From contig JABMQS010000053.1 in the NCBI GenBank assembly GCA_013202525.1, positions 1 to 38,793 on the forward strand: DNA of 38,793 nt, read 5' to 3'. The notes below the pieces were generated by a model, which had not been told where the DNA came from, ran no database searches, and saw only the letters and a list, made by a program, of their open reading frames with translations. The DNA comes from Candidatus Omnitrophota bacterium (GTDB lineage: Bacteria > Omnitrophota > Gorgyraeia > JABMRG01). Positions 10,850-38,793 of the stretch are shown here, in pieces (position 1 is the stretch's first letter; the number at the start of each line of letters is the position of its first letter). A program made the translations under genes and the position numbers.

Positions 10850-10858
10850 CTAATATCA

Positions 10859-10914: not shown

Positions 10915-10923
10915 GCTCTTTTA

Positions 10924-12558: not shown

Positions 12559-12568
12559 ACTATACATA

Positions 12569-12597
12569 AGTGTAGAGTATATTAGGGCAATTGTCAA
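12569..12597 (-). promoter_or_regulatory. Sigma70-type promoter of the secretin gene
   Basis: A perfect TTGACA (12592-12597) is spaced 17 bases from TACACT (12569-12574). The predicted transcription start near 12562 lies only about 4 bases before the ATG at 12558. Together with the lack of a Shine-Dalgarno sequence this points to a nearly leaderless transcript. Confidence 0.6.
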
Positions 12598-12620
12598 TAA
12601 AAATAAGGGAGGCTGTAAAC

Positions 12621-13067: not shown

Positions 13068-13087
13068 CTCTTAGTGTCCCTTTCGTC

Positions 13088-13543: not shown

Positions 13544-13552
13544 AATATTTTC

Positions 13553-14983: not shown

Positions 14984-15036
14984 CTGTCGCTATTTCCTCT
15001 TTAAATCCAGCCTGGTTTGAGCAGCATCAACAAGAG

Positions 15037-15183
15037 TTACTGCGCCGCAGATACCCTCTTGACCTTACCGTTCTTCCAAACAGCAAGTAAGCGGCCTGTC
15101 TTCCTATGACGCTCCACCACCTCTTTTACCGCCTGCCTTAAAGCAAGTAATGCCTTATCCTGTAAAGACCTTCGCCTTTTCAT
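15037..15183 (-). CDS. 48-residue partner of the zeta-like kinase, putative antitoxin
   Basis: An ATG at 15183 overlaps the TGA of the kinase gene in an ATGA arrangement and opens a 48-codon frame. The product begins MKRRRSLQDKALLALRQAVK and ends GKVKRVSAAQ; between them are EVVERHRKTGRLLAVWKN. It is basic, with a predicted helix (8-28) followed by a short beta hairpin (LLAVWKNGKVKRV). From memory, small proteins of this LRQAV...HRKTGRPLAVWKDGKV style are often found beside zeta-like AAA genes, and a role as cognate antitoxin or regulator is plausible but unproven here. The overlap implies translational coupling in a fixed ratio. Confidence 0.75.
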   Translation of the reverse strand: MKRRRSLQDKALLALRQAVKEVVERHRKTGRLLAVWKNGKVKRVSAAQ

Positions 15184-15755: not shown

Positions 15756-15781
15756 CGGTCTCCGAGTGTACAACAATATTA

Positions 15782-15810
15782 AGTTTACACTATATGCCAG
15801 GCGATGTCAA
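15782..15810 (-). promoter_or_regulatory. Promoter of the zeta-like kinase / small-partner pair
   Basis: A perfect TTGACA (15805-15810) is spaced 17 bases from TAAACT (15782-15787) on the minus strand, in the gap after the radical SAM gene. The predicted start near 15775 gives a leader of about 20 bases containing the GGAG site. Confidence 0.65.
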
Positions 15811-15824
15811 TTAAACAAATCTCA

Positions 15825-17588
15825 TCATGTGATTTTTAAGGAAGACTTATGCTCTTCTACAAGGGCATCCTTGCTCATGCCGCAGGATATGCGTTCCCAG
15901 GGCAGGATCTCATCACAATCCCGCATCCTCAGATAGCAATCCTTATCTATCCGGTTCTTCAAAAGGGCATCTTCCCATATCGCTGGGTTAAACGACTCAC
16001 TCCAGGCATCGAACCTGGCGCCGCTCTTCCAGGCATCGCGCAAAACAGGCCCCAGCCTCCTGTCGCCTCTTGAAAATATGCCTTCCAGGACACTGGTCTT
16101 TACATCGTGCATCTTAAGCCTGAGGTATCTTTTTCCGCGGACCTTATCAAGCAAAAATCTCTGCCTTCTCTTAAGCTCATCTTCTCCTGTCATAGGCATC
16201 CACTGGAAAGGCGTATGGGGCTTGGGTATTAAAGAAGATACGCTTATCGTGATCTCTGCCGGCGAACGCGAGCTCTCCTTCTTTAATAACGCCAGTTTGT
16301 CAGCCAGGTCTATGATCGCCTCAAGGTCTGAGTCGTCCTCCTGCGGCAGGCCTATCATAAAATATAGTTTGACCTTTCGCCAGCCCATCTTATACGCCTG
16401 CCTCAATGCATCAAAAAGTTCCTTTAACTGTATATTCTTTTTTATTATACCGAGCATCTTCTCTGTCCCGGCCTCGGGGGCAAAGGTGAGCCCGCTCTTT
16501 TTTATCATACTTATCAGAGACGGCAGCTTTTCTAAATCCTCCTCGACCCTGAGCGACGGCAGTGCAATGCCGACACCGAGGGGCGCAAAGATCTCAGTAA
16601 GGCTGTTTATCAGCTCCTTGATATGAGGGTAGCTTGAGCTCGACAAGGAGACGAGTGATAACTCGTCAAATCCGGTATTCTTATAACTCTCCCTGGCCAG
16701 ATCGATAAGCTCGTCGGTCTTTCTCATCCTGGGCGGGCCGTATATGCTCCTTGCCTGGCAGAAGCGGCAGTTGTGCGCGCAGCCGCGCATTATCTCAAGG
16801 CTTATCCTGTCATGTATGGTGGAGATATACGGAACTATCGGGCTTGTAGGATAATCGTCGGATCTCAAGGACTTTACTGTGCGCTTTGTGACGGTATCCG
16901 GGATATCCGAGGACACAGGCCTTATCGCTTCGATCTTGTCTCCGGCATAGGATATATCATAAAGCGAAGGCACATAGACACCCTCTATCTTTGCCATCTC
17001 CCTGAGTATCTCATTCCTGTCCTTGCCCTGCTCTTTAAGGTGCCTGTAACACTCCACTATTTCAAGGATGGCCTCTTCACCATCGCCAAGGAGAAACAGG
17101 TCTACGAAATCCGCCAATGGCTCGGGATTAAAGGCAGACGGGCCGCCGGCTATGATAAGCGGGAATTCAGTACCGGTCCTCTTTGAAGACTCCAAAGGTA
17201 GGCCGGCAAGGTCTAACATATTGAGGAGGTTTGTATAGGTGAGCTCATACTGAAGTGAAAAACCTATGATATCAAATGATGACAGCGGCGTCCTGCTCTC
17301 CAGGGAAAAGAGCGGTATCTTTCTCTGGCGCATGACCTCTTCCATGTCATGCCACGGCGCAAAAGAGCGCTCACACAAAATACCATCCTGCTTATTCAGA
17401 ATATGGTATAGCACCTTAAGCCCGAGGTGGCTCATGCCGATCTCATAGACATCAGGATAGCAGAGGCAGACCTTTGCCCCGGTCCGGTCCCAGTCCTTGG
17501 TTATGGAATTGTGCTCCATGCCAATATACCTGGCCGGTTTCCTTACACCCAGCAGTATCTCATCATTAAGCTCTACTCTATTTTTCAT
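15825..17588 (-). CDS. B12-binding-type radical SAM protein (TIGR03960-like)
   Basis: This 587-residue protein has an N-terminal cobalamin-binding-like domain (about 30-180, with PDVYEIGMSHLGLKVLYHIL and PLIIAGGPSAFNPEPLADFVD). The radical SAM core carries Cys270, Cys274 and Cys277 (GCAHNCRFC, CxxxCxxC) for the 4Fe-4S cluster. LSLVSLSSSSYPHI and FAPEAGTEKML are further core segments. The C-terminal region ends without a fused DUF2344 domain. The family is typically found in the mre/rod - rng - rplU neighbourhood, which is its place here, 8 bases after rodA. A role in RNA or ribosome modification has been guessed from this neighbourhood; the substrate is unknown to me. Confidence 0.9.
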   Translation of the reverse strand: MKNRVELNDEILLGVRKPARYIGMEHNSITKDWDRTGAKVCLCYPDVYEIGMSHLGLKVLYHILNKQDGILCERSFAPWHDMEEVMRQRKIPLFSLESRTPLSSFDIIGFSLQYELTYTNLLNMLDLAGLPLESSKRTGTEFPLIIAGGPSAFNPEPLADFVDLFLLGDGEEAILEIVECYRHLKEQGKDRNEILREMAKIEGVYVPSLYDISYAGDKIEAIRPVSSDIPDTVTKRTVKSLRSDDYPTSPIVPYISTIHDRISLEIMRGCAHNCRFCQARSIYGPPRMRKTDELIDLARESYKNTGFDELSLVSLSSSSYPHIKELINSLTEIFAPLGVGIALPSLRVEEDLEKLPSLISMIKKSGLTFAPEAGTEKMLGIIKKNIQLKELFDALRQAYKMGWRKVKLYFMIGLPQEDDSDLEAIIDLADKLALLKKESSRSPAEITISVSSLIPKPHTPFQWMPMTGEDELKRRQRFLLDKVRGKRYLRLKMHDVKTSVLEGIFSRGDRRLGPVLRDAWKSGARFDAWSESFNPAIWEDALLKNRIDKDCYLRMRDCDEILPWERISCGMSKDALVEEHKSSLKIT

Positions 17589-17596
17589 AATTACCC

Positions 17597-18688
17597 TTAA
17601 AAGATTTTACGTTTGTGGCGGACGCTGACAGCAAGGGCAAGGAGCACCATTGTACTTATCAGGCTTGAGCCGCCGTAGCTTACAAGGGGAAGCGGCAGGC
17701 CCACAACAGGCATAAAGCCTATGGCCATGGCTATATTTACAAAGACCTGAAACCAGAGCGTGGCAACAACGCCGGCGACCAGAAGCTTACCCCTTAAGTC
17801 GCTGGTCGTATTGGTTATTGAGAGCAGGCGCATCGCAAGAAACAGAAACAGCACCAGCACCAGCACCGCGCCAAAGAATCCCCACTCCTCTCCTATGACT
17901 GAAAATATAAAATCTGAATGCCTCTCCGGCAGAAAGTTAAACTGGTTCTGCGTCCCGGATAGCCAACCCTTGCCAAAGATACCGCCTGAACCGATGGCGA
18001 TCTTCGACTGTATCACCGTATAGCCTGCCCCCAGAGGATCGATATTCGGGTTTAGGAATACGAGCAGCCTCTGCCTCTGGTAGTCCTTTAATACAAGCCA
18101 GAGCATGGGAAAACTCAACAGGCCTGTCAGGACAAGGCCAAACATATACCTTAGCCTCACGCCTGCCACAAAAAGCACCATAAGCAGTATCGGTAGAAAG
18201 ACCAACGCTGTCCCGAGGTCAGGCTGTTTGATTATCAGAAATATCGGCACCATGCAGATGAGCAGGGATGTTATAAATACCTTTATGCTGCCAAGATTAT
18301 TCTTGTTGTCGCCTATGTACCTGGCGAGAACAAGGACAAAACTCACCTTGCAGAATTCAGAAGGCTGCAGCACAAACGAACCGATGCTGAGCCACCTCCT
18401 TGCCCCGAGCCTGGTACTGCCTATAGCGAGAACGATTATCAGAAGAAGTATGTTGAGCGCGAATATCAGATACGCATAATCGAGCCAGCGCTCGTAGCCG
18501 AACCATACGATAAATACGAACAACCCCACGGCGATCGCCATCCAGATGAGCTGCTGCATGGCAAAGTTCTTCTGCATTACGCCTGTCGACTGATGGGATG
18601 CGCTGTAGAGCGAAAAGAGCGCTACCATAAATATGAACGCTATAACCACCAATATCAGGGGATCCTTGTCTTGTGTAATGCCTCTCAT
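17597..18688 (-). CDS. rodA: Peptidoglycan glycosyltransferase RodA (SEDS family)
   Basis: This 363-residue polytopic membrane protein has about ten hydrophobic helices. It polymerises lipid II together with PBP2 during lateral wall growth. Family signatures are ARRWLSIGSFVLQPSEFCKVSFVL, KQPDLGTALVFLPI, FLPERHSDFIFSVIGEEWGF and the C-terminal GLPLPLVSYGGSSLIS. The gene lies 8 bases after its partner mrdA and 8 bases before the radical SAM gene. Confidence 0.97.
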   Translation of the reverse strand: MRGITQDKDPLILVVIAFIFMVALFSLYSASHQSTGVMQKNFAMQQLIWMAIAVGLFVFIVWFGYERWLDYAYLIFALNILLLIIVLAIGSTRLGARRWLSIGSFVLQPSEFCKVSFVLVLARYIGDNKNNLGSIKVFITSLLICMVPIFLIIKQPDLGTALVFLPILLMVLFVAGVRLRYMFGLVLTGLLSFPMLWLVLKDYQRQRLLVFLNPNIDPLGAGYTVIQSKIAIGSGGIFGKGWLSGTQNQFNFLPERHSDFIFSVIGEEWGFFGAVLVLVLFLFLAMRLLSITNTTSDLRGKLLVAGVVATLWFQVFVNIAMAIGFMPVVGLPLPLVSYGGSSLISTMVLLALAVSVRHKRKIF

Positions 18689-21731: not shown

Positions 21732-22888
<1,157 letters not shown>

Positions 22889-23102: not shown

Positions 23103-26100
23103 TTACGCGGCCTGTCTGGCCTTCTTCACCGACTCCCTGAGCATCTCTATCTCTTCGGAAGACCTGGGCCTTACCCTTACAAATAATCCAGCGACACCTT
23201 CTGTTCTGTATATCTCTCTTAAGCGTCTCTCCTCATCACTTGTAAACAGCCCTGATATCTTGCCGGTTGTAAACATCGCTGAGAAGAGCTCATATATGGA
23301 TATAAATTTGCCATCACCCGGCGTCGGCATATCTACAAGGACGAGATTAAACTTATCTGTGGCCTGATCCAGCTGGCCTATGAATGTTCTTGCCTGGGTA
23401 GCTATGGTCAGGTTCTCAGGCAGGGCATTGGTCATCTCCATGATCTCATCAGCGCTTACCCTGGTATTGCTCTTTGAGATTATGTCTATATCAATCATTC
23501 CATGATACGCTGTCTTGAGTCTCTGGAACCTATCGGCATCATCTCCGAAGAGTACAAGCCTCAAGCTTCTCGTTTGGCCGGTATTGAATCTGCTCGCCAG
23601 CTCACCAACGGCCTCATAGAACTCTGTCTCATCCTGTATGCACGTTGTATCTATGGCCTTGACATCAGGCGTTATTGGAATACGGCCTGTTGAAGAAGCC
23701 CTTATCTCAAGCGGCGCATTGAATACGATATCTACTGCCTCAGCAGCCTTATTAGGCGAAGGAGCTGGATTCATAAACCCTGCAAAAGGAGCAAGTGTAG
23801 CGCTCAAGACCTTATTAAGAGTGTGTAGAGGTATTCTTAACGCAGGATGTATGCGCGCAGGCGCTGGCTCAACCATGCCAGTACTGGCTGTCTTTGTAGG
23901 GGCTTGTGGTGCTTCAGGTTCTGCATCAGCCTGAGCCTGCCTTAACGCTCTAAAGGCCTCTAGTACTTCATCCTCTACCTTATATGCGTCTGCAAGCTCA
24001 ACCTCCCTTTGTACCTGAGCTGCAGCTTCTTGATCACCTGCCCGTGCCTTTTCTAAATTATCCACGTCCAAAAGATCATGCTTCACAAGAACGTGCATAA
24101 GATTGTCTTGGGCTTGTCTAATAGGATCGACTTCTGCAGCTACCGTTTCCTCAGCACTCTTTGCAGGGCCTTGCGGCGCTTCGGGTTCTTCGGGTTCCCC
24201 AGGCTCTTCGGGTTCCTCAGGCTCCTCAGGCGTTTCAGGCGCCCCAAATTCAAGTCCTTTGTTTTTCGCAGCAGTCTTGAGATGACGTTCAAATATGGAC
24301 TGCCTTACCTGTTCTATCTCCTCTACCATGCCTGTGGCAATATTAGCTACCATAGCAAGTCTCTGCTCTTCATCAACAAGGCCCGCTTGCCTTAACTCTT
24401 CCTCATTGTAGATACCTTCCTGTAATAAAGGAGCGGCTATGTCAGATCTCAGGGTGCTGTTTGCACTCTCAACCGCGGCCCTGATATTATCATTGTCGAT
24501 CTCACCTTTTGCTGCCCTTCCAAAGGCCTTTGATATCTCCTGATTATGGGCAACTCGGTCTGCTACCTGCTCTTCGCTGAGTTCTTCTTCATCCCTGAGG
24601 ACCCTTATAATAGCGTCTTGATAGGCTGCGCGGGCAGGGCCAACAACTTCTCTGATCCTAGCATACTCCTGATGGGCTAATTCTGTATCACCTGTTCTGA
24701 AATCAGCCAATATGCCGCCCCTCTGCATAGCTTCGTATACCGGCATGCTATGCCTAAACTCTTCTTCTGCCTCTGTCCCTGCCTCTTGCTGGGCCTCTTC
24801 AAACAACCTGCCCATATCCTGCTGCCTCTCCATCTCATGCAGCGGTGCCAATGCCTCCATGCTATCTGCATCTTCGGGAACATCCAGGCCCTTCTGTATA
24901 AGTCTGTGCTTTTCAGCTGCCAATCTCAGGGCATCAAAATCATCCTCTGCACCTTCCTCAAGCAATGGTTTCTTGCCTTCTCCCTGTGGCTTTTTTAACT
25001 CTTTGATAGCTTCATCTACTTCAGCATCGCTGGCATCTCCCCCCGCCTCAAGCAGGCCGGCATCCTGAAGCAGGCCCTTCTTGTATGCCTTCCTAAGTTC
25101 TTCGTCAGAAGGATCCTCTGGAAGCTCTATACCTTTTTTCCTAAGGTTTTCGATGAGGTCTTTTCTTTGTTTTTCTCTCTCAGCCTCTTCAGCCTCTTGG
25201 TGTGCCTTTGCAGCGGCTGCTATCTCTTCTTGAGTGGCATCATCATTTATATCCACGCCTTCATCTTTTAGCCTTTGAACATGCTCTTGTCTCTTTTCTT
25301 CTGCCCGGGCCTTTTCTAATTCATCGGGATCGTTCGCGTCTTCCTTACTAAGGGCTCCCTTTTCTATGAGATCGCGCTTTTCAATGGCCTCTCCTATAGC
25401 GCCGAGGTCATCCTCTCTACCGTCTTCGAGCAATGATACACCGTCTACGTTCTTTAATTTCTCATCAATAACTGATCTCACCTGCTCTTCATCAGCGCTG
25501 GCTCCCTCCGGAAGCAGTCCGGCCTTATGAAGCGCCTGCTTTATGCGGGCCTTGTCCATAGCGCCTTCATCATCTTTTTCATCCTCAGCAAGGAAGCCTT
25601 CATCTATAAGGCTCTGGGTCTGCGCCTCTTCCATCTTCTCATAAGCCTCTTGCATAGCCACCATCTGACTCATGCCTGTTATCTCTGCCAGGAGATCGTG
25701 CAGTCCTTGCCTTACTTCCGCAAGAGACTTATTTCCCCTGTTTTCTAAATGCTCCTTGACCTTTTCTGCTACTTCCTCGCCTTCAAGCTTCTTTAACATA
25801 TCTATATAATCAGCGCCCAGGTCTTTGCTCTGCTTGGCCTGTTCTATCAACCTATGTACCGTCTCTTCCCATAAGACTATCTTCATCTCAGCTTCAGGGA
25901 TAACCACTCTCTTGCCGCCTTCTTTTCTGGTCAAGGTGCCCTGGTAGAAATGAGCTGAACTGAATCTCTTGGCCTCACCGTACTGCTCAAAGATATCATC
26001 TACCTCGTCTCTCAGGTCTTGAGTGTTCCAGTACACAAGCTCCATTCTATAATCAAAGAAATACTTATTGGGGATTTCTTCGGCAGCATCACCCACTGCT

Positions 26101-29100
26101 CCAGTCCTGTGGCTAATATCCGTATGGCATAATTCATGGCCAAAGCGTTCAAGCAGGATCCAACCGGCGCCTCTTGCGTGTGTCTTGTTCACCCCAACAA
26201 CAAATTCTACAAATGCCTGGTCAAAATCAACTACTGCCACATTCATCTCCTGGCCATCTCTTGTAATCGTTGCCTGCCTGGCAGCATTCCTCTCCGCGTT
26301 AGCTCCTGTTGGCATGCTCTTTCTTACACGTAAAGATGCGATACCTGGTTTACCATCAATACGAAACGTACTTTCATCCATAAGCTTCTCCAGCTGGGTG
26401 CCTACCTCAGGATGAGTCCTCTTTACTTGCTCAAACTGTTCCAGGGCCGCATTGACACTCACAGCAAAGTCTCTGGCCTCTTCATCGGCATCATCTGCTA
26501 CCACAAATGTCTTCTTGCCATCTATCTCCTCAATGGTTATTCCTTTATACTCTCTGGCAATGCCATCTCTCATATCTATAAGCATCTCATCCATCTTGGC
26601 CTCTTCAATACCTGAACGCGTTCCTATATCTTGCTTTACAGCATCACCGAAGATCTCGTCAAAGGCCGCATCCTCTATCCTTTTTTCACTCGGGGCCTTG
26701 CCATCCTCTGCTTCCAGCCTTGCCCTCGCCTTGGATCTCTCTTCCTGGATATTGGCATCACCGTATACCTGTGTTGCCATATTCCATGCCAGGCGCTCCC
26801 CTATCTTACTCTCTGACAGCTTGGAGGCCCGGCCTAATTCTATTATGGAATTATTAATGCTCTCCTCTATCCTATCCTGCTGATCAGCATTCTCTTCCTT
26901 AGCCAGCCTCTCGCGCTTATCCTTGATATCATCCACAAGCCTGAATATCTCCTGCTGATCATCCTCAGGCAGGCCTTGCGCCATGGCCCTGTTTACATCC
27001 TTCTTGATCTGCTCCGGCGCATCATCATCAAAATTGATCTCAACCGCGCGCCTCGCGTTCTGTATAGCCTGATCCCTGTCTCCAATGCTTGGAATCCATC
27101 TCAAAGGAGCAGTAATTACTATAGCTATCGGCTTTGATGCTGTTAACAGCATACCTAATAAAGCGTTCCCCCACATGCCGCTCTTTAGCTTAGCAAGACC
27201 GGAGGCCTCAGCCGTATCAGGCGCAAGAGCACCCATACCAAACATCTTCATTATGATCACGCCATAGATATAGGCCACCGCAGTCACCAATAGCAACCCT
27301 TGCCCCGCCTCTTGTGTCCTAAGGGTCGACATAGGCACCCTGAGTATTGATATATCGAGCATAGATGACATCCTAGATAACCATTTGCTATTCTTTGTGA
27401 TCTGCTTCTGCCTCTGCCTGAGTATATTTATAGGAACCTGATTCAATTTCGGCTTTATCTGTTTGGCCATACTCATATCTATCCTTACAATATCATTATT
27501 AATAGCATGGGTAAGTAGAGATGTGTTCGGGAAAGACTCAGGTTTTTTAGACTTCTTATTATAGATCGTTATATCCCTGCGTATTGCCTCTAAGGCAGGC
27601 CTTATATCATCGGTCAGCTGGATCACATTCGCGGCATTGATATCCCCGCCTGCTTCGATCACGATCTTTCTATAAGCAAGGTGTGAATCTACAAGCATAT
27701 CTATCTGCGACATATGCAGATCCGGCCTGGCCAGACTCAACATATACTTAACAATATATCCGCTGTCCTCGTCCACATCCTGCTTGGTCGTCATCTGCTT
27801 CATCATATTCCCTATGTCCTTGCTGACTATCCGCTTACTATGCCAGCCAACGACAGAGTTGTGGTATGCCCCCATGACCTTTTTGCCTGCCTTTGCCAGC
27901 ATTATCGATACATCAGGTAACAGGCCGCCGCCTATCATCATGTAAGCATGTATAAACCCTATCTGGCCTAACAGACCAAAGTAGCGGCCAAAGAACACTG
28001 AGGCGAGTATCGGTGTGTAGTATTGAGTTGGAAGACCCATATACGGATTTACAGAAGTATGTTCCCTAAACTTGTACAGGTTTGCAAAGTATGATGATCT
28101 CTGCATAGATATATACCGCCTGAGTGCCTTGTGTACGCTCGATCTCCTATTAACATGCCCTAATAATGCCTTTGCAAGCTGAACGCCTGAAGCATGATAC
28201 CTCATGGACTCCATGAGATTATCATCAGCCAGGGCGCTCTGATCCATCATGCCTTTTTTGACCAGGCCATTTACAAACAGGACCTTGGCCTCTGTCTTCT
28301 TAAAGTCGTAGCCTGTCTTTGATAGATACCCCTCATCCATCATGCGCATGGTCTTGTGGAATGCATCTTCTTCATCATCTCCTGTACCGCGCATGCCGCT
28401 GAATAAACCCTTGAGTACAAGTGAGATAGCAGCGGCTACCTTTGATTTCTTCTTCTCTTTGGTATTCTGCGCAGCCACTGCAGCCTCTACTGTATACTTG
28501 CCTGTAGATGGATCGTAATAATCACGCTTTTCATTCTCTTCCTTTTCAACATCCAGTGACACGCCTGCGTCATTATAGGCGGTCTCCATGCTCTTCTCAT
28601 CTGTCTTTATGGCTGCTGCATCAGCGCCGGCCATCGGGGGAATCTCAGGCAGGTCCTCGCGCGATACACTCGCGTCTAATCTCCTGACCAGGCTGGACAT
28701 GGTCGGCGCAAATCCGACTCCGGCAGATGATGCCTTTGCTGGCAAGGATTCCTGGATATGGAGATCCATCCTGCCTGCCTCAAATATCTCAAGTTCGGCG
28801 TTTATGGCATCGCGGGTCTTATCAGAAAGTCTGTCAAAGCGGCCTTGCCAAATCTTAAACTTCCCTTCATTATCCCTGAACTGCTGCAGAACCGTCATAA
28901 ACTTGTCCACACGCTCCTGAAGGGCCTTGACAGGATCCTTCGCCTCTCTGGCCTCAGGATCCATATTATCATTTGACTTTATGAAACTCTGGTAAACCAT
29001 GACTATCTCATGGAGAGTATCTCTGCCTTGCTCGCCCTCATTATCCTTAAGCCTGGATAAAAACTCCGCGCCGCGTATGTCTATTAATTCAGCTACTATA

Positions 29101-32100
29101 TTAAAGAATGCGATCTTATCGGTATTTTCTGTTACATCAGTCAGGAATTTTTTCAATGCAGGCCCTGCTACCGCACTGTCTGTGATAGCTTCATCTAATA
29201 TCTCAACAGTAGCATCGGTCCTATAGACGTGGAGCCTATGATATATCCTGTTCTCGTTTCCGTCTTTTACATCTACGCACCTGCCCGCTTCATTAAGATG
29301 GCGGATACCCCTGTCTCTACCGGCCAACTGCTCAAAGAATGCCATGTTTGTGCCGCTGTCTATAATTCCAAAGCACTCGATCTCACTATGCGTACCATTC
29401 AGATCTTTTGAGTCAACACCTTCAGGCTTTATATTCTCCAATAGCTCAGTAAGCTCTATATTGGTGGCCCTTGTTGCAGGAGCATTGAGATAGAAGACAA
29501 GCCCGCCGCTCGGGTCTCCGCTTTGAACTGGTTCTGCTGTCCTTCGGGCTGGATGCGACTTTGAGCCGGAGAGATCTGCTTCCTTAAATTCAGACCTGCT
29601 GAGTACCTCTCCTGCGCTATATTCACTTAGCCCCAATGCCTGCAGCTTCTGCATAAGCTCATCCCTATATTCGGGGTTCTTCTCCAGGAGCGCAAGTTCT
29701 GTCATAAAGTTCTCAACTGCAATATCCCCATTTTGGGCTGACAGTTTTATATCAACAGAAATGCCGGGCTTGACATGAAGCGTCCACCTATTATCACGCT
29801 CCTTGTAAAGCACGACCTTGCCGCTCTCTAACAGTTCGTTGATCGTAACACCAGGATCATCATTATGGAGCATTGAACCATCCAGGAGCGCGGCAACGGG
29901 AAGACCCCTTATCCTTCCAAGAATATGATCCTTTGCCACATCCCAGTCATGTGCCCTTGTCAGGGAGGTTATCCTTGACTCATATATGAATGCGGATATC
30001 TTAGAACCCATATCCATGTTGACTTCGATGTTAAATATAAATTCCGCGAACTTCTCCACAGACTTTAAGGTACCTGAAAAACCGCCAAAGTCAGCGCCAG
30101 ACTCAATAGCACATACCATGGCTGCGGCCATAGAAGTGACTGTGGAGAGATTGGATATCCTTACGCCTGTTATGCCCCTCTTCGGGTCATCCACCAGATA
30201 GGGCGTCTTATTGAGATATCTCTTAAAAATAAGCTCGGTGTGGCCCGCAAAATATGGATCTGAAAGCTGCAGCTGAGGCGCAAGAATACCATGTGGCGCA
30301 GGCTTTATGAGCTGGCTGCCGCCAGGGCCGCCATCCAATGCCACATCGCCGCCATAATACTGCATCAGGGCATTAGTGCGTCCTACCATAGACTGCCTGT
30401 ATGCCACAGTCTCAGGATCCTGTGTACGATAAAACTCCTCAAGGGCCGCATCTTCACCCTTGTCACCCTTGCTGTAATCCTGCCAGTTGAACTTGACTCC
30501 CTTTCTGCCTGATACCCACTTCATAAATGCCACATGGACAGCCTGGTCAAAGTAGACTTCTATATAATCCTTAGGCTTACCATTATCAACCCATTCCCCG
30601 TAGGTCCAGTCCTGGATCTTGTCCTTACGCTTGATCTTAAACTTAAGGTGCCTCCACTGTGCCTCCACATAGTCTTTGCCTGTCATATTTTCTTTAATTT
30701 TAAAGCGATTCTCTGCCTGATCGATAAGTTTATCCGCGTCTGTATTGATAAACCCATCCACCTCACTGAGGCGTCTTATCTCATCAGCATCAAGCGCCCT
30801 TGCGTCGAGGCCTTCCTGCGCCCTGTTCCTGAAGAAGGCTGTATCGACCTCATCATGGAGCACCTTTGCGTTTGAAAAGATCTGATTCCATATATCTTTT
30901 GAGACAGCGGCGTTGTCAGCCTTGGCATTGCGAAGCAGGGAAAGCTGCAGGAACATAAATGTATCTGCATCCATGTATATCAGGTCTACGCCTGTGCCGT
31001 TTGTACCTTCTGTTAATCTCTTAAGTATCGCCTCTGGATCCTTTTGTATATCACCAAGGGTGATCTGTGTGACAATATCCTCATTGAGCGTAACCTTAGG
31101 TTTTGACCCAGATTCTGCCTCTGCTTCAGAATCTGCCAGGCGAGCTTCAAGCTCCTGATCAGCGGCCGCAATAGTCTGCTCGGTCTCTGGCTTTGGATCT
31201 GCCAGGGACTCTTCCCCGTTCTGACATAAGGCTACTATATCCAGTTCCTTTTTGTCGAAATCGATATTCATCGGATTATTCTTGGTGGCTATCTCTTTAA
31301 ATTGGTTTGAGTCATGCGTAATGTATATGGTGTGCCTTCCGGGCATTGCCCCGTTTTTCTTTAATATGGAGTTTATCCTAACTACGGCCTTCATAACTGT
31401 CTTTGTCTTTCCAAAACCCGTAGGTATCTCAAAGAAGGTGTTCTTAACAAAGGCAACAGAGAGTATGGCCTCTATAGGATTGATCTTATCCCTTTCGTGC
31501 AGTTCTAATTCTGTATTCTCCGCACGCATCTCTTCTACGGCTGTATAAAGAGCCTGCTTTATCTGCTCTATGGTATTAAACCTGTTATGGCCTTCTGTGA
31601 TTATATTGCCGTCCTCAAGGTCTGTGATCGTTAGAGTAACGCTGTCGGCATTAAACTTGCCTGTTTTTTGATCAAACATCTCTTTAGTGCTCTTAGGAGA
31701 TTTAATCGCAAAACTCAACCCTGAGCCTGAATCGGTTATAGATGTTGTACGCACGTCCCCGTTAAAGTCGACGAGCCTCTGGATCCCGCCGCCTGAGCTG
31801 ACATTGGCAATGCTCAGGACCGGTATCTTCTTCCCATCCGCTGATGTTGTCTCATCAATAGACAGAACCGCCTCTTTCAGGTCTATTCTAGTCATCACCT
31901 TTGACCCTGCCTTTTCCTCTGCCTCTATGGTGGGGTGGGACTTTACGCCTTCTGCGCTCTCTGCATCCGCTTCAGAGGCATCTTGATCAGGCTTTGTGTA
32001 GTCTGAGGCCTCAAGTACAAAATCTACATAAGGGTTATCGGCAAATGTTGCAATATCATTTTCTAATCTAGCCAATGTCGTCCTGGTCAGATCATATTTC

Positions 32101-35100
32101 TGTGCCTTATCCCCTATGCCATCGATCTCTATATAAGGGGATCCTTTACCATCTGCAACCTGTTCTGTTCCTATCCTTGCTACTATTATCTTAACCTCTA
32201 TCAGACCTAATCTTGTGACCAGCAGGTTACGCGCATCTTCGCTCAGGTCACTAAACTCCACATCCTCCATCAAAGGCCCGACTTCATCCCTTACATCTTC
32301 TAGGCTGGCACCTACGGTTACCTGGTCGGTTTCTGCGCGGTCCTTATTTATCTGAGCTGCCAGAGTTCCTTGAGCTATGTTCAGTGCGTGTTCCAAGGTG
32401 ACTATCTTTGTAACACGTGCTACCTCTAGCAGCTCGAATTCTGATAATCCATTATTCCTTGCGAGATCAGCCAGGCTGTCTCCTGCGCGGACCGGCACTG
32501 GTATAAGCTCAAACCCCTTCTTGGCCAGGAGGTTCTGATTCAATACAGCCGCGATTGATGTCTTTCCTAGCCCTGCCAGGTGCCTTGCTGCCATGCCTAC
32601 GGTTATTGTGCGGCCTTCGTTGGCTTTAAGGAATGTCGTTGCTTCCTCAGCAGTAAAACCTAGTATCTGCAATGCTTCAACTTTCCTATTCACTGTACCT
32701 GATTCATACATAAACACTGTCAGAGACATAGCAGGCGTGACATATGCAGGCGTTAAGATCAGTCCGCATTTTTCCGCAAATGCACCTGCTTCCGGTTTGC
32801 TGCTTAAGGTATCTACAAATGCTGCAAAGCTTTGTCTGTTCTCTGATAATCTTGTCCTAACGCTGGCGGCCACGGATTCTTCAGCCTTGCTTACAAATTC
32901 TGCTACGCTTGTATTGCTATTCATGCTGGGATCTGCTTCCAGCTGGGCTTCTATCGCTTCAACAGAATCTTTAAATTGTTCTGAACCCAACAGGTCTTCT
33001 ACCTTTACATAGTCTGTAAGCTCTGCCATCTCTGTTTTATCCATAATGGTGAACTCTACCTCGTAAGTATCCTGAAGCTGGGGAAGGCTCTGTCCTGTCA
33101 TGCCTGCGAATTCTACATTAGACATCTCATGGCCTGTCTTGATCTCATGCATATTATCAAGAAGATCAAAACTGCTCATACGCTGCTCTGTCTCTGATAC
33201 GGCTGCATGCTCATTCTGGTGTTTTGTTAGTTCATTAAGGCTCATACCACTGATTCCAGCTGCGGTGTATTCGCCTTCCTGGACATCATTCTGGTCCTGG
33301 GCAAACCTTATGCCCATGGCTTCAAATCTATCTGCATTTTCGCTGATCTCTTCCTCGCTAAGAACATCTCCCACCTTAAACCCTCTCTTCTGCACCTGCT
33401 CATCAAGGGTAACGGGCTTTAGCCTCTTTAATGAACTGTTCGCCCTGCTATAGAATCTTATCCTGGAAGATGCCCTGCCTCCTATACCCGGAATTAACTC
33501 AACCGCTACCTCAGCTGCGCCTGGTGAGATACCGAAGAAGCCCTGTAATATGAATGAGGCCGATCCTTCAAGATATGCCTCCCTTGCAACGCCCATGGCC
33601 TCTGTGGCAATTGTAGATTCACCTACCCATTTTAAGGCAACTTTCGACCCTGGTATTTTTCCAGCAACCCCACCCAGAAACTGGCCTGACACCTCCATAG
33701 CAGCCCCAAGTGGAGCCAGGACAGCACCAAAGATAAAGCCCTGTATCGCAGCGTCTATATATGTATTAGCGCCAAAGTTCTCTATGCCGCGTGAAAGCCA
33801 ACCGGCTACAGCAGCGGTTCCGGTCTCGCCACTCTTCTCATGGGGCCTGAGCCACCAGGTGGATACAGGAGTAAGGAAACCCTTTCCTATTGCGGTGAAT
33901 ATTATCATATGTCCACCAACACCAAATGCCTGGCCAAGCAACTGGTTATAAGCAGCATAGGCTGTCCTTGGGTGTAATAGGGCAGCAGCAAATCTTCCTA
34001 CTCCTGTTGCGCCCAAGAAACCAGGGGTATCACCAAATATCTCTATCTTTGTCACAAGCGGGACCTTGCCCAATCCTTTGTGGCCTACTACTATGCCGCT
34101 CCAGAAGAAGTTAACGATAAGTGTTGTACCGCCAACAGTACCAAGCCCCCATTTAATGCCTTCCCAGCTGGTGGCTGTACGAACACCTGAGTAGAATCTA
34201 TTGAAAAATCCGGTCTCATTATCAGGATTTGCAATTGCCTGATAAAGCCCTCTTCCTGTAGCGCCGTAGAAGAAGAGGCTGTATGGTGAAATGGCCTTCG
34301 TTTCAAAAGACAGCGGCTTGAATATACTGCCCAAAATCCCCCTCTTGGGGTTAAGCGCGACCCTCAGGTATTGGGGCGCTTTAGGTAAAGCAGATTCTGC
34401 CACAATGGCCTGGTCAGTATGTATTGTCCTGCTCAAGGCCTTGTAACCTCCGGCAGCAGTCCACATCAACGCCAATGCAGTAGCTGCTATAAACCCCTGC
34501 TTGACGCTCTCTGCAACCAGATCCGCGGATATTGCCCTGCCACGCCCTACAGCCTCATGTATACCATAAAACGTACCAAAGGCCGGTGCTGACCAACCAA
34601 CAATGAGCCATCCTGAAACCTTCTCGCCTGACTGGTATGCCTTGTATATGCTCAATGGCCTCCAATGTTTCAATGAGAACGCATGGCTTCCAAACCATTT
34701 TACATTTGAGGCCTGGAATGCAGAACCGATAGTAGCCGGTGTGCCGATAGCGGCAAGTGGAGTAAAGACCATAGACCACTTCACAGAACTTCTTATGACA
34801 TCCATTGCGCCTTGCGCAGTAGGCGTTTCGCCGCGGGAAAAGCTCATAGCTGTGTAGGCCGACAGGCCTACTGTTGTAGTAGTCTGAACATTGAAGAGAA
34901 AAGCGCGATAAAGCCTTGCGCTGATAATACTGCCATAGCCTAGCGCTGCCCGGGCACGTAAAAATCCCTTTGATGAGGCATAAGTAGTTGAGACCGCTGT
35001 TTTATAACCAGCGCCCAGCCTTGATACCATAGCTGGGGCAAGTCCTACAACCTGTCCTGCTCCAAGAGTCATTGCGAGCGCCTCAATGTCCTTATTTGTC

Positions 35101-38100
35101 TCCATCACATGTAGGGCTGCCACACCGGTCCTGTATGTCGCCTCCCATCCTCTTTTCCATAATCCTTTAGACCCTATCTCATTGTTTAGCTCGATCATCT
35201 CAGTCTTTAAGGCAGCGGCTATCTGTGCATTCTTCAGGTCATCGTTGACCTTCTCATAACCATCATTGAACTTATCTATATCACTGCCTTCGACCTCTGA
35301 ATATCTGGAGAAGACCAGGGCATCTTCGACTCTTGATTCAAGCTCTTTATAGGCATGATCAGCCCTGCCCCGGCCAGCTCCCTGCGGCATGGCATCTATC
35401 TTATCCTTTATAGCAAATAAAGGAACCAGTATGCCGCCTATAGTTGTTTGCTCGATCCTGTCTTCAGGCCTGCAGTCATCAGGCCTGTACAAGGCATTTA
35501 CATATCCCAGGTCTTCCATATAGAGACTGACATTATCAGTGCCTTTGAAATTATTGATATAGATAAGTGTGCCGAGGTTGCCGCGCTTCCTAACCCCATG
35601 TTTATCAACATAATAGTATTGCCTGTCTATCTCGAGCTTGCATACGGTTGCTACGCTCTTTCCTCTTATATATAGGTGCTCTCTTGCGGTATTGGTGCTC
35701 AAGGCATACTCTATGGAGAGGTCATTATAAGCGCCTGACTCAGAGCTCTTGGGATCACCAAACAATGCCCTTAGGTCGTTTCGCTTTCTTAATCTCGTGT
35801 CTTTTGTGAATGTCGACTCTCCTAGCGCAAGCCCCTTAAGCGTGGAGGTAAATACGATTCCATCTGATTCAAAGCTTACGCCTTCTTTGAAACCGTATTC
35901 TTCTTCTGTGACCTTTATTATCGCCGCTAAGATCTCCTTTTCATGTTTGACATATGCTCTATAATGATTTGCCTCAACGGCGTGCGCTAACCAGAAGTGA
36001 CTATGCCAGGTAGTGGCATTAGCTGCCCCATATGTAATATCATTCGCAAGCACAGCAGTGATAGAACCGTTTACTGTGGAGAGGTCATCATAACTCTTGC
36101 CAAACGTCAGCTTGCCATTGTAAACGACTATATCAAATGTCACAGGGAGAGTGGCCTGACCCCTGGGATCTGCATAATGAACCCATAGGTTACCTTCTTT
36201 GATTGCAGACTGAACAGATAACCTCTCTGTTACTCCCCAGCCTTTGATAGTCTCATATGAGAGGTTATATACGAGATAGTTTCTCACCTTTCCGCTATCC
36301 AGTTCGCTCACCTTTGCCATTACCCACTCACCGCTATCAGCCCAGCTCAGATCAGAACCTCTGATATGCAATATCTGATTCTTATACAATGCAAATGCGC
36401 CGTCTTTTATATGCATAAGCCCCCACATCTTCTGGGTATTTGCATCATATTTTGTGGGCCTGAACCTGACAACATCAGACTGTGTCTTTTTCGATTTCTT
36501 GTCTCTTGGCGGAGGAGCCAGCCTTCTGAGCCTGCTCTGGTCGCCAACCTTTATGGCCTGGCCTTCATCAGGCGCCCACAGGTCGCCTTGCTTTATAACA
36601 AAGTTATCCATAAGCGATATATTGGCCGCTGGCAATAACTCGCGGCCTTCTGTTTCATAGAAACTGCCTAATGTTGTGATGGATCCATCTATCTCAAACC
36701 TGACATCTGCCTTACCCTTGTTAAATGCCAGCTTTATCTCATCTGCGTCTCCAGCCTTGACCAATGACTCAAAACCAACCCTTTCTGCATCAATCCTTGA
36801 AACAAGCACCTCGTAAACCTTATCGCCCTCTTCAACTCTTTGAACAGCCAAACTTATCTTCTTGCCGTTAGGTAAATCGAACGCACCAAGTACGTTGCGT
36901 TTTTCATCTTTTGAGGTAAGCCCATGGACCGTCTTTCCTCGCGAATCTCTAAACTCTTTGACCACAGTCCTGCCACCTTCTTCTCCTAAATACGCTTCTT
37001 TATTATTGTATAGGCTTACCTTGGCCTCAAACGTAGACTTTTTCAGCTTAAACCATGCATTCTCATTGGGAGGAGCACAATGCAAGGTCTCTGTAACTTC
37101 TATATTTTTGATAGACCTTGCTAACTTCATGCCATCTACGTCAACACGGACAAATAGATTATTGCTCACTTTACTCTTTACCGCAAACAGGAGCTTCTCT
37201 TCGCTTTCTACTTTTACCTTCCTATATAAAAAAGCTGTAAGGCCTGATTCAACATCCTCATATGTTAATCCCAGTTCATAGAAGCCGTCTGCATCGGCCT
37301 TGCCCGTGGCTTTATATATCTCAGTATATTCGTATTTGTCTAATGTCTTATCGCTTCCTATCAAACTTTCAGATCTCACGTTTGGATCGGTAGTAAATAA
37401 TCTGCCATTTGCGCCAATCTTTATGGATGTTTCTTTATGCAGAGTCAACCATCTCCCATTCATATAAGTTGTTATACCTGCGGCAATAGCTCTTACACTT
37501 CCAGAGCCATCCTGGCTGATGGCATTATCCACTATCTTTATGCTGTCACCCTTCTTGGCAATCTGCAATACCTCTACTATGGCATTCTTACCCTTTACAG
37601 TAGTGGTGCCTGCATAAAGGGTCTTATGAGAGTTTGCAGCTGTCGCAGCTTGCGGTTGACCTTTATCTTTATCAGTGCTCTTTTCGGTTATAGTAACCCT
37701 TGTTACCTGCGAACCTACCTTATTTATCACAACGCTGAACTTTCCGTCTTCTATCTTACCATCTTTAAACACAACCGGCATAGCCTTGCCTGTACGAGGA
37801 TCTGTAGTGTTTATCGAACCTTCTATATTATTACTATTATCGATCCTGTTGCCTCCCGCATCAAAGTAAGCGCCGAGGTTAGATTTTTCACTGCTAAGTT
37901 TGCCTTTTTCGAATACAAGTGTTGTCTCCCTGGTTATCCCTTTTAAGGTTATTGTATCGTTAGTACCAAGGCCATTCTGCAAAGCCTGAACCTTATTCTT
38001 TGCATAAGCAATAAAGCTTCCCTTGGTCTCACCAGCCACTGTCATAGGATCAAAGCCTTCCTTGGCATTCTTTATGACAAAGCTTATATATTCTTTTGCT

Positions 38101-38793
38101 GTTACGCTCCAGTTGCCGAATACACCGCCTGTGGCTGCTGCGCCATTTTCCATGGAGACGTTTATGTTCTCAAAGCCTTCGTTCACAAGGAGCAGCTGGA
38201 CATTGTCTGTTGTCTTTAGATTGCCGGCTGCATCTTTCTGCGCAAGAACAGCCATGCCTACTGTGCCTGTTACAAGCTGCTTGCCGGCTCTTTTTACCAG
38301 AAGGCTTGCGTTCTTGGTGGCTATGCCTGGTATGGTGCTAAGATCGAATGCATCAGAAGGCGGCTGGTCAGAAGGTGTATTGTCATAATCTGTTACCTCA
38401 CCCTTGCCTAAGAAGAGTGTACCCTTTGCAGTCAGGGCGATCATGTTTGATGTGAACTTGCTTACCTTGCCTGCCTTGGTTGTTATATCAACAACTATGC
38501 TCTTATCAAAGGTCAGTATTACTGCCTGGCGGCCATTCTTGTCTGTCTTCAACTCTGCAGCAGTTACTTTCCTTCCGTTATATACGTGCCCTATGGCAGC
38601 TTTTATGTTAGAGACAGAAGCTGCCAGTTTGGCTATGCGAACTTTTGCAGCACCTGCCTTATCAGCAGATACCTTGCTGTCTATGACATGGAGGACGTCG
38701 GATGCTGTATCAAGGTGCTGTATGTTCTGGATGTATTGTTCACCATCCTGTGTCCACTCGAGCCTTTCAGCGCGGTATATATTGGCTGCCTCT
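23103..38793 (-). CDS. Giant multidomain protein, C-terminal part (start beyond the right edge)
   Basis: The frame is open from the right edge to a TAA at 23103: at least 5,229 codons without a stop, and the real start is outside the window. A TTG at 38552 has no ribosome-binding site, and the frame continues for 80 sense codons before it. From N to C: beta-rich region (38793 to about 35300), hydrophobic helical region (about 35100-33500), LysM-like segment (about 32500-32365), SecA-like ATPase module (about 31450-29200), hydrophobic segments (about 28030-27900 and 27305-27085), HELCH metal-site motif (26138-26124), acidic helical repeats (about 25530-24840), a Pro/Glu linker (about 24245-24165) and an alpha/beta domain at the end (about 23700-23103). 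Proteins of tens of thousands of residues are known in Omnitrophota. A surface or predation-related role is inference; no single known protein matches. Confidence 0.93.
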   Translation of the reverse strand, partial: EAANIYRAERLEWTQDGEQYIQNIQHLDTASDVLHVIDSKVSADKAGAAKVRIAKLAASVSNIKAAIGHVYNGRKVTAAELKTDKNGRQAVILTFDKSIVVDITTKAGKVSKFTSNMIALTAKGTLFLGKGEVTDYDNTPSDQPPSDAFDLSTIPGIATKNASLLVKRAGKQLVTGTVGMAVLAQKDAAGNLKTTDNVQLLLVNEGFENINVSMENGAAATGGVFGNWSVTAKEYISFVIKNAKEGFDPMTVAGETKGSFIAYAKNKVQALQNGLGTNDTITLKGITRETTLVFEKGKLSSEKSNLGAYFDAGGNRIDNSNNIEGSINTTDPRTGKAMPVVFKDGKIEDGKFSVVINKVGSQVTRVTITEKSTDKDKGQPQAATAANSHKTLYAGTTTVKGKNAIVEVLQIAKKGDSIKIVDNAISQDGSGSVRAIAAGITTYMNGRWLTLHKETSIKIGANGRLFTTDPNVRSESLIGSDKTLDKYEYTEIYKATGKADADGFYELGLTYEDVESGLTAFLYRKVKVESEEKLLFAVKSKVSNNLFVRVDVDGMKLARSIKNIEVTETLHCAPPNENAWFKLKKSTFEAKVSLYNNKEAYLGEEGGRTVVKEFRDSRGKTVHGLTSKDEKRNVLGAFDLPNGKKISLAVQRVEEGDKVYEVLVSRIDAERVGFESLVKAGDADEIKLAFNKGKADVRFEIDGSITTLGSFYETEGRELLPAANISLMDNFVIKQGDLWAPDEGQAIKVGDQSRLRRLAPPPRDKKSKKTQSDVVRFRPTKYDANTQKMWGLMHIKDGAFALYKNQILHIRGSDLSWADSGEWVMAKVSELDSGKVRNYLVYNLSYETIKGWGVTERLSVQSAIKEGNLWVHYADPRGQATLPVTFDIVVYNGKLTFGKSYDDLSTVNGSITAVLANDITYGAANATTWHSHFWLAHAVEANHYRAYVKHEKEILAAIIKVTEEEYGFKEGVSFESDGIVFTSTLKGLALGESTFTKDTRLRKRNDLRALFGDPKSSESGAYNDLSIEYALSTNTAREHLYIRGKSVATVCKLEIDRQYYYVDKHGVRKRGNLGTLIYINNFKGTDNVSLYMEDLGYVNALYRPDDCRPEDRIEQTTIGGILVPLFAIKDKIDAMPQGAGRGRADHAYKELESRVEDALVFSRYSEVEGSDIDKFNDGYEKVNDDLKNAQIAAALKTEMIELNNEIGSKGLWKRGWEATYRTGVAALHVMETNKDIEALAMTLGAGQVVGLAPAMVSRLGAGYKTAVSTTYASSKGFLRARAALGYGSIISARLYRAFLFNVQTTTTVGLSAYTAMSFSRGETPTAQGAMDVIRSSVKWSMVFTPLAAIGTPATIGSAFQASNVKWFGSHAFSLKHWRPLSIYKAYQSGEKVSGWLIVGWSAPAFGTFYGIHEAVGRGRAISADLVAESVKQGFIAATALALMWTAAGGYKALSRTIHTDQAIVAESALPKAPQYLRVALNPKRGILGSIFKPLSFETKAISPYSLFFYGATGRGLYQAIANPDNETGFFNRFYSGVRTATSWEGIKWGLGTVGGTTLIVNFFWSGIVVGHKGLGKVPLVTKIEIFGDTPGFLGATGVGRFAAALLHPRTAYAAYNQLLGQAFGVGGHMIIFTAIGKGFLTPVSTWWLRPHEKSGETGTAAVAGWLSRGIENFGANTYIDAAIQGFIFGAVLAPLGAAMEVSGQFLGGVAGKIPGSKVALKWVGESTIATEAMGVAREAYLEGSASFILQGFFGISPGAAEVAVELIPGIGGRASSRIRFYSRANSSLKRLKPVTLDEQVQKRGFKVGDVLSEEEISENADRFEAMGIRFAQDQNDVQEGEYTAAGISGMSLNELTKHQNEHAAVSETEQRMSSFDLLDNMHEIKTGHEMSNVEFAGMTGQSLPQLQDTYEVEFTIMDKTEMAELTDYVKVEDLLGSEQFKDSVEAIEAQLEADPSMNSNTSVAEFVSKAEESVAASVRTRLSENRQSFAAFVDTLSSKPEAGAFAEKCGLILTPAYVTPAMSLTVFMYESGTVNRKVEALQILGFTAEEATTFLKANEGRTITVGMAARHLAGLGKTSIAAVLNQNLLAKKGFELIPVPVRAGDSLADLARNNGLSEFELLEVARVTKIVTLEHALNIAQGTLAAQINKDRAETDQVTVGASLEDVRDEVGPLMEDVEFSDLSEDARNLLVTRLGLIEVKIIVARIGTEQVADGKGSPYIEIDGIGDKAQKYDLTRTTLARLENDIATFADNPYVDFVLEASDYTKPDQDASEADAESAEGVKSHPTIEAEEKAGSKVMTRIDLKEAVLSIDETTSADGKKIPVLSIANVSSGGGIQRLVDFNGDVRTTSITDSGSGLSFAIKSPKSTKEMFDQKTGKFNADSVTLTITDLEDGNIITEGHNRFNTIEQIKQALYTAVEEMRAENTELELHERDKINPIEAILSVAFVKNTFFEIPTGFGKTKTVMKAVVRINSILKKNGAMPGRHTIYITHDSNQFKEIATKNNPMNIDFDKKELDIVALCQNGEESLADPKPETEQTIAAADQELEARLADSEAEAESGSKPKVTLNEDIVTQITLGDIQKDPEAILKRLTEGTNGTGVDLIYMDADTFMFLQLSLLRNAKADNAAVSKDIWNQIFSNAKVLHDEVDTAFFRNRAQEGLDARALDADEIRRLSEVDGFINTDADKLIDQAENRFKIKENMTGKDYVEAQWRHLKFKIKRKDKIQDWTYGEWVDNGKPKDYIEVYFDQAVHVAFMKWVSGRKGVKFNWQDYSKGDKGEDAALEEFYRTQDPETVAYRQSMVGRTNALMQYYGGDVALDGGPGGSQLIKPAPHGILAPQLQLSDPYFAGHTELIFKRYLNKTPYLVDDPKRGITGVRISNLSTVTSMAAAMVCAIESGADFGGFSGTLKSVEKFAEFIFNIEVNMDMGSKISAFIYESRITSLTRAHDWDVAKDHILGRIRGLPVAALLDGSMLHNDDPGVTINELLESGKVVLYKERDNRWTLHVKPGISVDIKLSAQNGDIAVENFMTELALLEKNPEYRDELMQKLQALGLSEYSAGEVLSRSEFKEADLSGSKSHPARRTAEPVQSGDPSGGLVFYLNAPATRATNIELTELLENIKPEGVDSKDLNGTHSEIECFGIIDSGTNMAFFEQLAGRDRGIRHLNEAGRCVDVKDGNENRIYHRLHVYRTDATVEILDEAITDSAVAGPALKKFLTDVTENTDKIAFFNIVAELIDIRGAEFLSRLKDNEGEQGRDTLHEIVMVYQSFIKSNDNMDPEAREAKDPVKALQERVDKFMTVLQQFRDNEGKFKIWQGRFDRLSDKTRDAINAELEIFEAGRMDLHIQESLPAKASSAGVGFAPTMSSLVRRLDASVSREDLPEIPPMAGADAAAIKTDEKSMETAYNDAGVSLDVEKEENEKRDYYDPSTGKYTVEAAVAAQNTKEKKKSKVAAAISLVLKGLFSGMRGTGDDEEDAFHKTMRMMDEGYLSKTGYDFKKTEAKVLFVNGLVKKGMMDQSALADDNLMESMRYHASGVQLAKALLGHVNRRSSVHKALRRYISMQRSSYFANLYKFREHTSVNPYMGLPTQYYTPILASVFFGRYFGLLGQIGFIHAYMMIGGGLLPDVSIMLAKAGKKVMGAYHNSVVGWHSKRIVSKDIGNMMKQMTTKQDVDEDSGYIVKYMLSLARPDLHMSQIDMLVDSHLAYRKIVIEAGGDINAANVIQLTDDIRPALEAIRRDITIYNKKSKKPESFPNTSLLTHAINNDIVRIDMSMAKQIKPKLNQVPINILRQRQKQITKNSKWLSRMSSMLDISILRVPMSTLRTQEAGQGLLLVTAVAYIYGVIIMKMFGMGALAPDTAEASGLAKLKSGMWGNALLGMLLTASKPIAIVITAPLRWIPSIGDRDQAIQNARRAVEINFDDDAPEQIKKDVNRAMAQGLPEDDQQEIFRLVDDIKDKRERLAKEENADQQDRIEESINNSIIELGRASKLSESKIGERLAWNMATQVYGDANIQEERSKARARLEAEDGKAPSEKRIEDAAFDEIFGDAVKQDIGTRSGIEEAKMDEMLIDMRDGIAREYKGITIEEIDGKKTFVVADDADEEARDFAVSVNAALEQFEQVKRTHPEVGTQLEKLMDESTFRIDGKPGIASLRVRKSMPTGANAERNAARQATITRDGQEMNVAVVDFDQAFVEFVVGVNKTHARGAGWILLERFGHELCHTDISHRTGAVGDAAEEIPNKYFFDYRMELVYWNTQDLRDEVDDIFEQYGEAKRFSSAHFYQGTLTRKEGGKRVVIPEAEMKIVLWEETVHRLIEQAKQSKDLGADYIDMLKKLEGEEVAEKVKEHLENRGNKSLAEVRQGLHDLLAEITGMSQMVAMQEAYEKMEEAQTQSLIDEGFLAEDEKDDEGAMDKARIKQALHKAGLLPEGASADEEQVRSVIDEKLKNVDGVSLLEDGREDDLGAIGEAIEKRDLIEKGALSKEDANDPDELEKARAEEKRQEHVQRLKDEGVDINDDATQEEIAAAAKAHQEAEEAEREKQRKDLIENLRKKGIELPEDPSDEELRKAYKKGLLQDAGLLEAGGDASDAEVDEAIKELKKPQGEGKKPLLEEGAEDDFDALRLAAEKHRLIQKGLDVPEDADSMEALAPLHEMERQQDMGRLFEEAQQEAGTEAEEEFRHSMPVYEAMQRGGILADFRTGDTELAHQEYARIREVVGPARAAYQDAIIRVLRDEEELSEEQVADRVAHNQEISKAFGRAAKGEIDNDNIRAAVESANSTLRSDIAAPLLQEGIYNEEELRQAGLVDEEQRLAMVANIATGMVEEIEQVRQSIFERHLKTAAKNKGLEFGAPETPEEPEEPEEPGEPEEPEAPQGPAKSAEETVAAEVDPIRQAQDNLMHVLVKHDLLDVDNLEKARAGDQEAAAQVQREVELADAYKVEDEVLEAFRALRQAQADAEPEAPQAPTKTASTGMVEPAPARIHPALRIPLHTLNKVLSATLAPFAGFMNPAPSPNKAAEAVDIVFNAPLEIRASSTGRIPITPDVKAIDTTCIQDETEFYEAVGELASRFNTGQTRSLRLVLFGDDADRFQRLKTAYHGMIDIDIISKSNTRVSADEIMEMTNALPENLTIATQARTFIGQLDQATDKFNLVLVDMPTPGDGKFISIYELFSAMFTTGKISGLFTSDEERRLREIYRTEGVAGLFVRVRPRSSEEIEMLRESVKKARQAA
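24165..24245 (-). other. Pro/Glu-rich linker in the giant protein
   Basis: The translation is a run of PEEPEEPEEPGEPEEP type between the acidic helical part and the C-terminal domain. The DNA is a degenerate 6-9-bp repeat, so length variation between strains is expected. It should be an extended, flexible spacer. Confidence 0.75.
24840..25530 (-). repeat. Two degenerate ~150-residue acidic helical repeats in the giant protein
   Basis: Unit 1 (from about 25515) runs AGLLPEG, LLEDGREDDLGAIGEAIEKR, then DLIEKGALSKEDAND. Unit 2 (from about 25065) runs AGLLEAG, LLEEGAEDDFDALRLAAEKH, then RLIQKGLDVPEDADS. The similarity is clear at the protein level and spaced about 157 residues. Short modules of the LKDEGVDINDD or LRKKGIELPEDPSDEELRKAYKKG type, resembling SAP/HeH helix-extension-helix folds, are interspersed. 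Confidence 0.6.
26124..26138 (-). other. HExxH zinc-peptidase motif in the giant protein
   Basis: The codons read HELCH, preceded by GWILLERFG and followed by TDISHRTG. A hydrophobic helix ending in HExxH is the zincin arrangement, and acidic residues that could supply a third ligand follow (EEIPNKYFFDYRMELVYWN). One short motif in so long a protein could arise by chance, but the helix context supports it. Confidence 0.55.
29200..31450 (-). other. SecA-like/SF2 ATPase module in the giant protein
   Basis: Motifs appear in the correct order. Motif I is EIPTGFGKTKT (about 31437-31405), comparable to SecA MKTGEGKT. A motif Ia-like segment reads HTIYITHDSNQF. Motif II is DEVDTAF (about 30857), where SecA has DEVDSIL. 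GFSGTL (near 30070) is comparable to SecA GMTGT. A motif VI-like QLAGRDRGIR (near 29320) is comparable to SecA QLRGRSGRQ, with the last Arg shifted by one. The spacing between motifs I and II is longer than in SecA. Confidence 0.75.
32365..32520 (-). other. LysM-like segment in the giant protein
   Basis: The stretch IPVPVRAGDSLADLARNNGLSEFELLEVARV matches the first two thirds of a LysM module (V..GDSL..LA...G.s..eL...N). The usual IYPGQ.L end is replaced by LEHALNIAQGTL, so it may be degenerate. LysM modules bind peptidoglycan or chitin. Confidence 0.45.
33500..35100 (-). other. Long hydrophobic region in the giant protein
   Basis: About 530 residues are unusually rich in Ala, Gly, Val, Ile, Leu and aromatic residues, with several stretches of 18-22 uncharged residues (for example AFLFNVQTTTTVGLSAYTAM, GFIAATALALMWTAAGGY and GGHMIIFTAIGKGF). 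Several could span a membrane. The many glycines and short turns also fit a membrane-associated helical bundle. Confidence 0.55.

Follow-up and report, generated by a model that had tools for sequence, protein, structure and literature searches.

The window, that is, the whole 38,793-nucleotide stretch of DNA analysed here, corresponds to contig C35 of a 1.64-Mb, 93%-complete metagenome-assembled genome (MAG) of 149 contigs from a Candidatus Omnitrophota bacterium. Its right-hand part is occupied by a single minus-strand frame (23103..38792) with 5,229 sense codons, one stop (23103-23105) and no N. The frame is open at its 5' end and reaches the edge of the contig, and the very long, edge-cut gene described in the earlier note was thus confirmed. 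The probability of a chance frame of such length at the given base composition was calculated to be about 10 to the power −117 (log10 P about −117). GC content by codon position is uneven across the entire frame, as expected of coding sequence, in agreement with the protein-like composition also claimed before. A TTG at 38552, called as the start mechanically, was discounted as start evidence, the true start lying beyond the contig. A colinear frame of at least 4,829 codons, with 35% identity over window residues 478-3938, was found in a separate MAG (L043, WJOT01000025.1), making an accident of assembly unlikely. The chance that the long frame stems from an assembly or annotation error is next to negligible: the sequence is indeed a MAG contig with the start outside, but separate MAGs contain colinear homologues, and single-contig genomes contain giant frames of this kind. 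It is a genuine giant gene that continues beyond the contig edge. No contig end overlapping C35 was found within the same genome, and a search of that genome for the missing 5' part with the corresponding upstream part of the giant of genome G373 returned nothing; this region diverges fast. The visible ORF, cut by the contig end, measures 15.69 kb, compared with 56-71 kb for complete relatives and the threshold of >20 kb of Seymour et al.

The stop codon is followed by an intrinsic terminator (22931-22901, minus strand) composed of a 13-pair stem and seven T (TTTTTTT), so that the gene does end in a proper terminator. An extended −10 sigma-70 promoter matching the consensus at 12 of 12 positions (22860-22888, minus strand) then precedes mreB. 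Because of this terminator and the separate promoter, the mre/rod genes are regarded as a separate unit. Their membership in the giant's system was considered and rejected, as they have their own promoter and were not found near the giants of relatives. Farther along the same strand (15180-15776) lies a small gene for a zeta-toxin/AAA_33-like P-loop kinase.

In sequence searches against Pfam, NCBIfam and PDB, no match to the window protein was obtained. The visible N-terminal stretch (residues 1-1230; 35103..38792, minus strand, as for all features of the protein) is without a known family, the homology to L043 beginning at residue 478. It is followed by a Gly/Ala-rich, hydrophobic and charge-poor region (residues about 1235-1720; 33633..35090), the later part of which is conserved in G373, L043, G002 and G251. 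The ATPase module (residues 2394-3340; 28773..31613) comes next, and then two hydrophobic helices (residues 3829-3898; 27099..27308) that are only marginal as transmembrane segments. The membrane segments noted earlier were accordingly retained in part: some hydrophobic helices exist, but they are few and marginal. The C-terminal part contains an HExxH (zincin-like) domain (residues 4030-4400; 25593..26705), whose HELCH motif (residues 4219-4223; 26124..26138) lies within a predicted helix. Both the domain and the motif are conserved in G002. Among 12 type A giants (those carrying the window-type ATPase module) examined, HExxH was found in six, four of which have at least two copies. The predicted model of this domain was poor and gave no fold match. 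Hence the protease-like segment proposed earlier stands as one conserved HExxH domain, without support from the fold. The wall-binding-like segment was not borne out, since neither LysM nor any other wall-binding family was detected in Pfam or NCBIfam.

The ATPase proposed in the earlier note is present and can now be specified. Judged from its motifs, its predicted fold and a chain of profile comparisons, the region of residues about 2394-3340 is a divergent SecA-like translocase ATPase. Motif I (Walker A) reads IPTGFGKT (residues 2456-2463; 31404..31427). Motif II (Walker B) reads DEVDTAFF (residues 2647-2654; 30831..30854), its SecA counterpart being DEVDSILI. Motif III is GGFSGT (residues 2903-2908; 30069..30086), corresponding to GMTGT in SecA, and motif VI is EQLAGRDRG (residues 3154-3162; 29307..29333), corresponding to QLRGRxGRQ. 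Among 10-12 relatives, motifs I (PxGxGK), II (DExDT), III (GxxGT), V and VI vary little or not at all. A loss of ATP hydrolysis, leaving the motor fold with a purely structural or peptide-binding role within a giant adhesin, might be read from the motif VI spacing of type A, one residue shorter than in SecA (RxR, not RxxR), and from the altered P-loop of some members of type B, another class of giants. This is nevertheless very unlikely, considering that all 12 type A members retain the key residues of motifs I and II. The module is predicted to hydrolyse ATP.

An AlphaFold2 model of the module, built without templates, was of moderate quality (pLDDT 60, pTM 0.50). In a Foldseek search of this model against PDB, the best 16 matches were all SecA (top E 1.5e-5, prob 1.00), with whole-chain TM-scores versus SecA being low, about 0.28; DdmD and further SF2 helicases were found at lower ranks. 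Direct comparison of the type A profile with the canonical SecA profile was not significant (E 0.055), with GGFSGT aligned to GMTGT. The type A profile of the window was found to match the type B profile (E 2.2e-5, prob 76), and type B in turn matches canonical SecA (prob 100, E 4.6e-68). Linking the window to SecA therefore depends on both the fold and type B as an intermediate. The module of the window showed no match at the Pfam cut-offs of PF07517 and PF01043, which type B passes; the label SecA-like is hence used rather than SecA in the Pfam sense. Alternatively, an SF2 ATPase may have been recruited into a secreted effector for a different task in the target cell, such as nucleic acid or protein remodelling, and not for translocation. 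This would fit the SF2 helicases lower in the Foldseek list, the Pfam matches of family members, which are to the general SF2 families ResIII and DEAD, and the SecA-like, helicase-related domains of Amoebophilus effectors (PMC3482391). It is considered unlikely, because the top fold matches are consistently SecA and not helicases, and because the preprotein cross-linking domain is kept in type B. The preferred reading is a SecA-like motor that would move polypeptide across a membrane. The genome of the window also encodes a canonical SecA, on contig C12.

Omnitrophota giants are among the largest proteins predicted anywhere, and have been described as poorly conserved and as having few domains that can be recognised. 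The assignment of the window gene to these giants is upheld by a homologue in G002, a genome of the same family and an Omnitrophota MAG (contig JAUVHV010000008.1), in which the hydrophobic region, the ATPase and the HExxH domain occur in the same order. A first scan of the contigs of relatives' genomes, with the window sequence alone as query, found nothing, and an alignment with relatives was needed. In two phylum-wide searches, the first with the G002 alignment and the second with a wider one, the module was detected in 10 of 384 and 16 of 368 genomes, respectively. In both searches, every type A match belongs to a frame between 3,066 and 39,033 codons long or, if shorter, to one truncated at a contig end. 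The module is located about 2,200-4,700 residues before the C-terminus in members with that stretch readable. The complete type A genes (21,284, 18,673 and 23,704 codons) all begin with signal peptides and have at least 15,600 residues preceding the module, and one of them, that of G051, contains discoidin domains in its N-terminal half. By comparison with these genes, the window probably holds only the C-terminal part of a protein that has at least 5,229 residues and is probably far longer overall (well over 10,000). The genome of L043, in which the type A giant closest to that of the window is accompanied by a type B giant of 12,611 codons, is labelled Clostridia, and is probably a mislabelled Omnitrophota.

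Type B is also represented in the genome of the window. Contig C81 (L078) carries a second giant (497-18486, plus strand) of at least 4,844 codons, with the order signal peptide, head domain of about 560 residues, SecA_DEAD and SecA_PP_bind (both passing the Pfam cut-offs), transglutaminase core and many HEAT repeats. The possibility that C81 and C35 are halves of one gene found no support: C81 already includes a SecA module, and G373 and G074 carry types A and B as separate neighbouring genes. The C81 giant lies directly 3' of an AcrB-type RND gene. More generally, an RND tripartite efflux operon (OEP-HlyD-AcrB-AcrB) was observed directly upstream of type B giants and of the type A giant on contig C4 of G074; the loci L097 (10138-19999, minus strand), L081 and L079 show it ahead of giants in G074 contig C4, G001 and G002. 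The domain of about 560 residues, which weakly resembles ChaN/Tiki as the type B head, opens type B giants as well as the genes that follow type A giants in several genomes. It shows invariant H, EG, E, E and TGGxH (alignment A8), and occurs in 169 of 368 genomes, in frames of 0.5k to 35k residues.

SecA-like modules were also found, with the type B profile, in the two largest frames. The single-contig genome G098 (1,974,201 bp) contains a 39,687-codon frame with a module at residues 10407-11011, in unmasked sequence, the frame being partly N-masked in the copy used. This module is of the type B or canonical kind, and gave no match to the type A profile. A frame of 45,379 codons in another single-contig genome (G028, contig C1, 1156625-1292761, plus strand) has such a module at about residues 36,217-36,931, with weaker modules around residues 13,636 and 1,719.

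Signal peptides, judged by eye and not by a predictor, stand at the start of type B genes and of the 39,687- and 45,379-codon giants as well. A common element stands ahead of the cleavage region in the signal-peptide-like N-termini of the giants (TQSDIQLAHA, TSVDIQLAFS, TQNDILFAFS, TQDIAWA, PEQVAWA and HQDIVWA). In a crude hydropathy scan, strong membrane spans were few in type A, and the 21,284-codon giant had no predicted span. No span was predicted between signal peptide and SecA module in type B and the 39,687-codon giant, except for a marginal one in G019. In the window, G002, G251, G376, L046 and G051, Walker A is preceded at a distance of some 700-1,400 residues by a hydrophobic Gly/Ala-rich segment. 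One strong span was predicted ahead of the motor in G251, and G051 also has one or more there. These segments could mean that export is halted by the hydrophobic segment, so that the producer cytoplasm, where ATP is available, retains the SecA-like and HExxH domains; the motor would then secrete the N-terminal part of its own chain, and the peptidase-like domain may release it. Such self-export accords with the position of the Gly/Ala-rich segment and with the span of G251, and is a serious but less probable alternative, given the absence of such spans in type B, with the marginal exception mentioned, in the 39,687-codon giant and in the 21,284-codon type A giant.

The reading that we prefer, and regard as having about an even chance of being correct, is that of an exported attachment or predation giant in which an embedded SecA-like motor moves polypeptide across a membrane. 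A Sec signal peptide would start export of the giant, and the partner or prey cell would be bound by an N-terminal part of thousands of residues, which is adhesive in at least one relative. The hydrophobic Gly/Ala-rich segment, possibly membrane-active, would enter a membrane, and the motor would spend ATP to push or pull polypeptide, either its own chain or the partner's, across that membrane. The motor is predicted to act outside the producer cytoplasm, on the far side of the inner membrane, because most complete relatives have no clear span between signal peptide and motor; with the motor placed outside, ATP would be supplied by the contacted cell. Counted against this reading are the non-significant direct similarity to SecA (E 0.055), the moderate model, the crude topology and the spans before the motor in G051 and G251, and an outside motor would be without ATP unless delivered into another cell. 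The frame, its homologous family, the SecA-like motifs and fold, the confinement to giant frames and the signal peptides of complete relatives are established; for the window protein itself, export, membrane insertion, ATP hydrolysis and the side of motor action are inferred. Extending the picture to Omnitrophota giants as a whole, namely as exported single-chain machines whose own SecA-type motor runs on the contacted cell's ATP and hauls giant polypeptide into that cell or out of it, is possible but rather doubtful.

A shared SecA-type motor gives the Omnitrophota giants a common and testable core ATPase, and the module can serve as a marker for giant genes split across MAG contigs. For these tiny bacteria, the findings suggest a possible role of active polypeptide transport, driven by ATP, in attachment or predation. 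Why would a Sec-exported protein contain a second SecA? Giant ORFs themselves are known: those of >20 kb in Omnitrophota are described in PMC10066038, and Omnitrophota giants have been published in PMC12057145 and PMC11573180. The SecA-like core looks new. A literature search joining Omnitrophota, giant and SecA returned no paper, with an earlier mention possible in West-Roberts 2023 (bioRxiv) and Kizina 2022, and a term search of the available text of PMC10066038 found no mention of SecA.

How does the module compare with known systems? It resembles SecA (PF07517/PF01043) in motifs I-VI, in fold and in the position of an insertion between motifs II and III. It differs in having only about 10-12% identity in structural alignments, in falling below Pfam detection and in being located inside a giant chain, whereas SecA is a free protein of about 900 residues. 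The Amoebophilus effectors (PMC3482391), which are presumed to act on other cells, likewise contain a SecA-like domain, but belong to another phylum; this comparison is made from the paper's description and not from sequences. The closest parallel in size is the giant of Candidatus Velamenicoccus archaeovorus, which has 39,678 residues, with peptides 3-fold up in attached cells according to PMC10066038. The 39,687-codon frame of G098 is very probably this giant, in view of a length within nine codons, the single-contig genome and the phylum. The window protein and the V. archaeovorus giant share the phylum, one huge frame and few annotated domains. Spans of the window protein are few and marginal, whereas 42 are reported for V. 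archaeovorus. The frame that is probably the V. archaeovorus giant carries a signal peptide and a SecA-like module, as in the type A giants.
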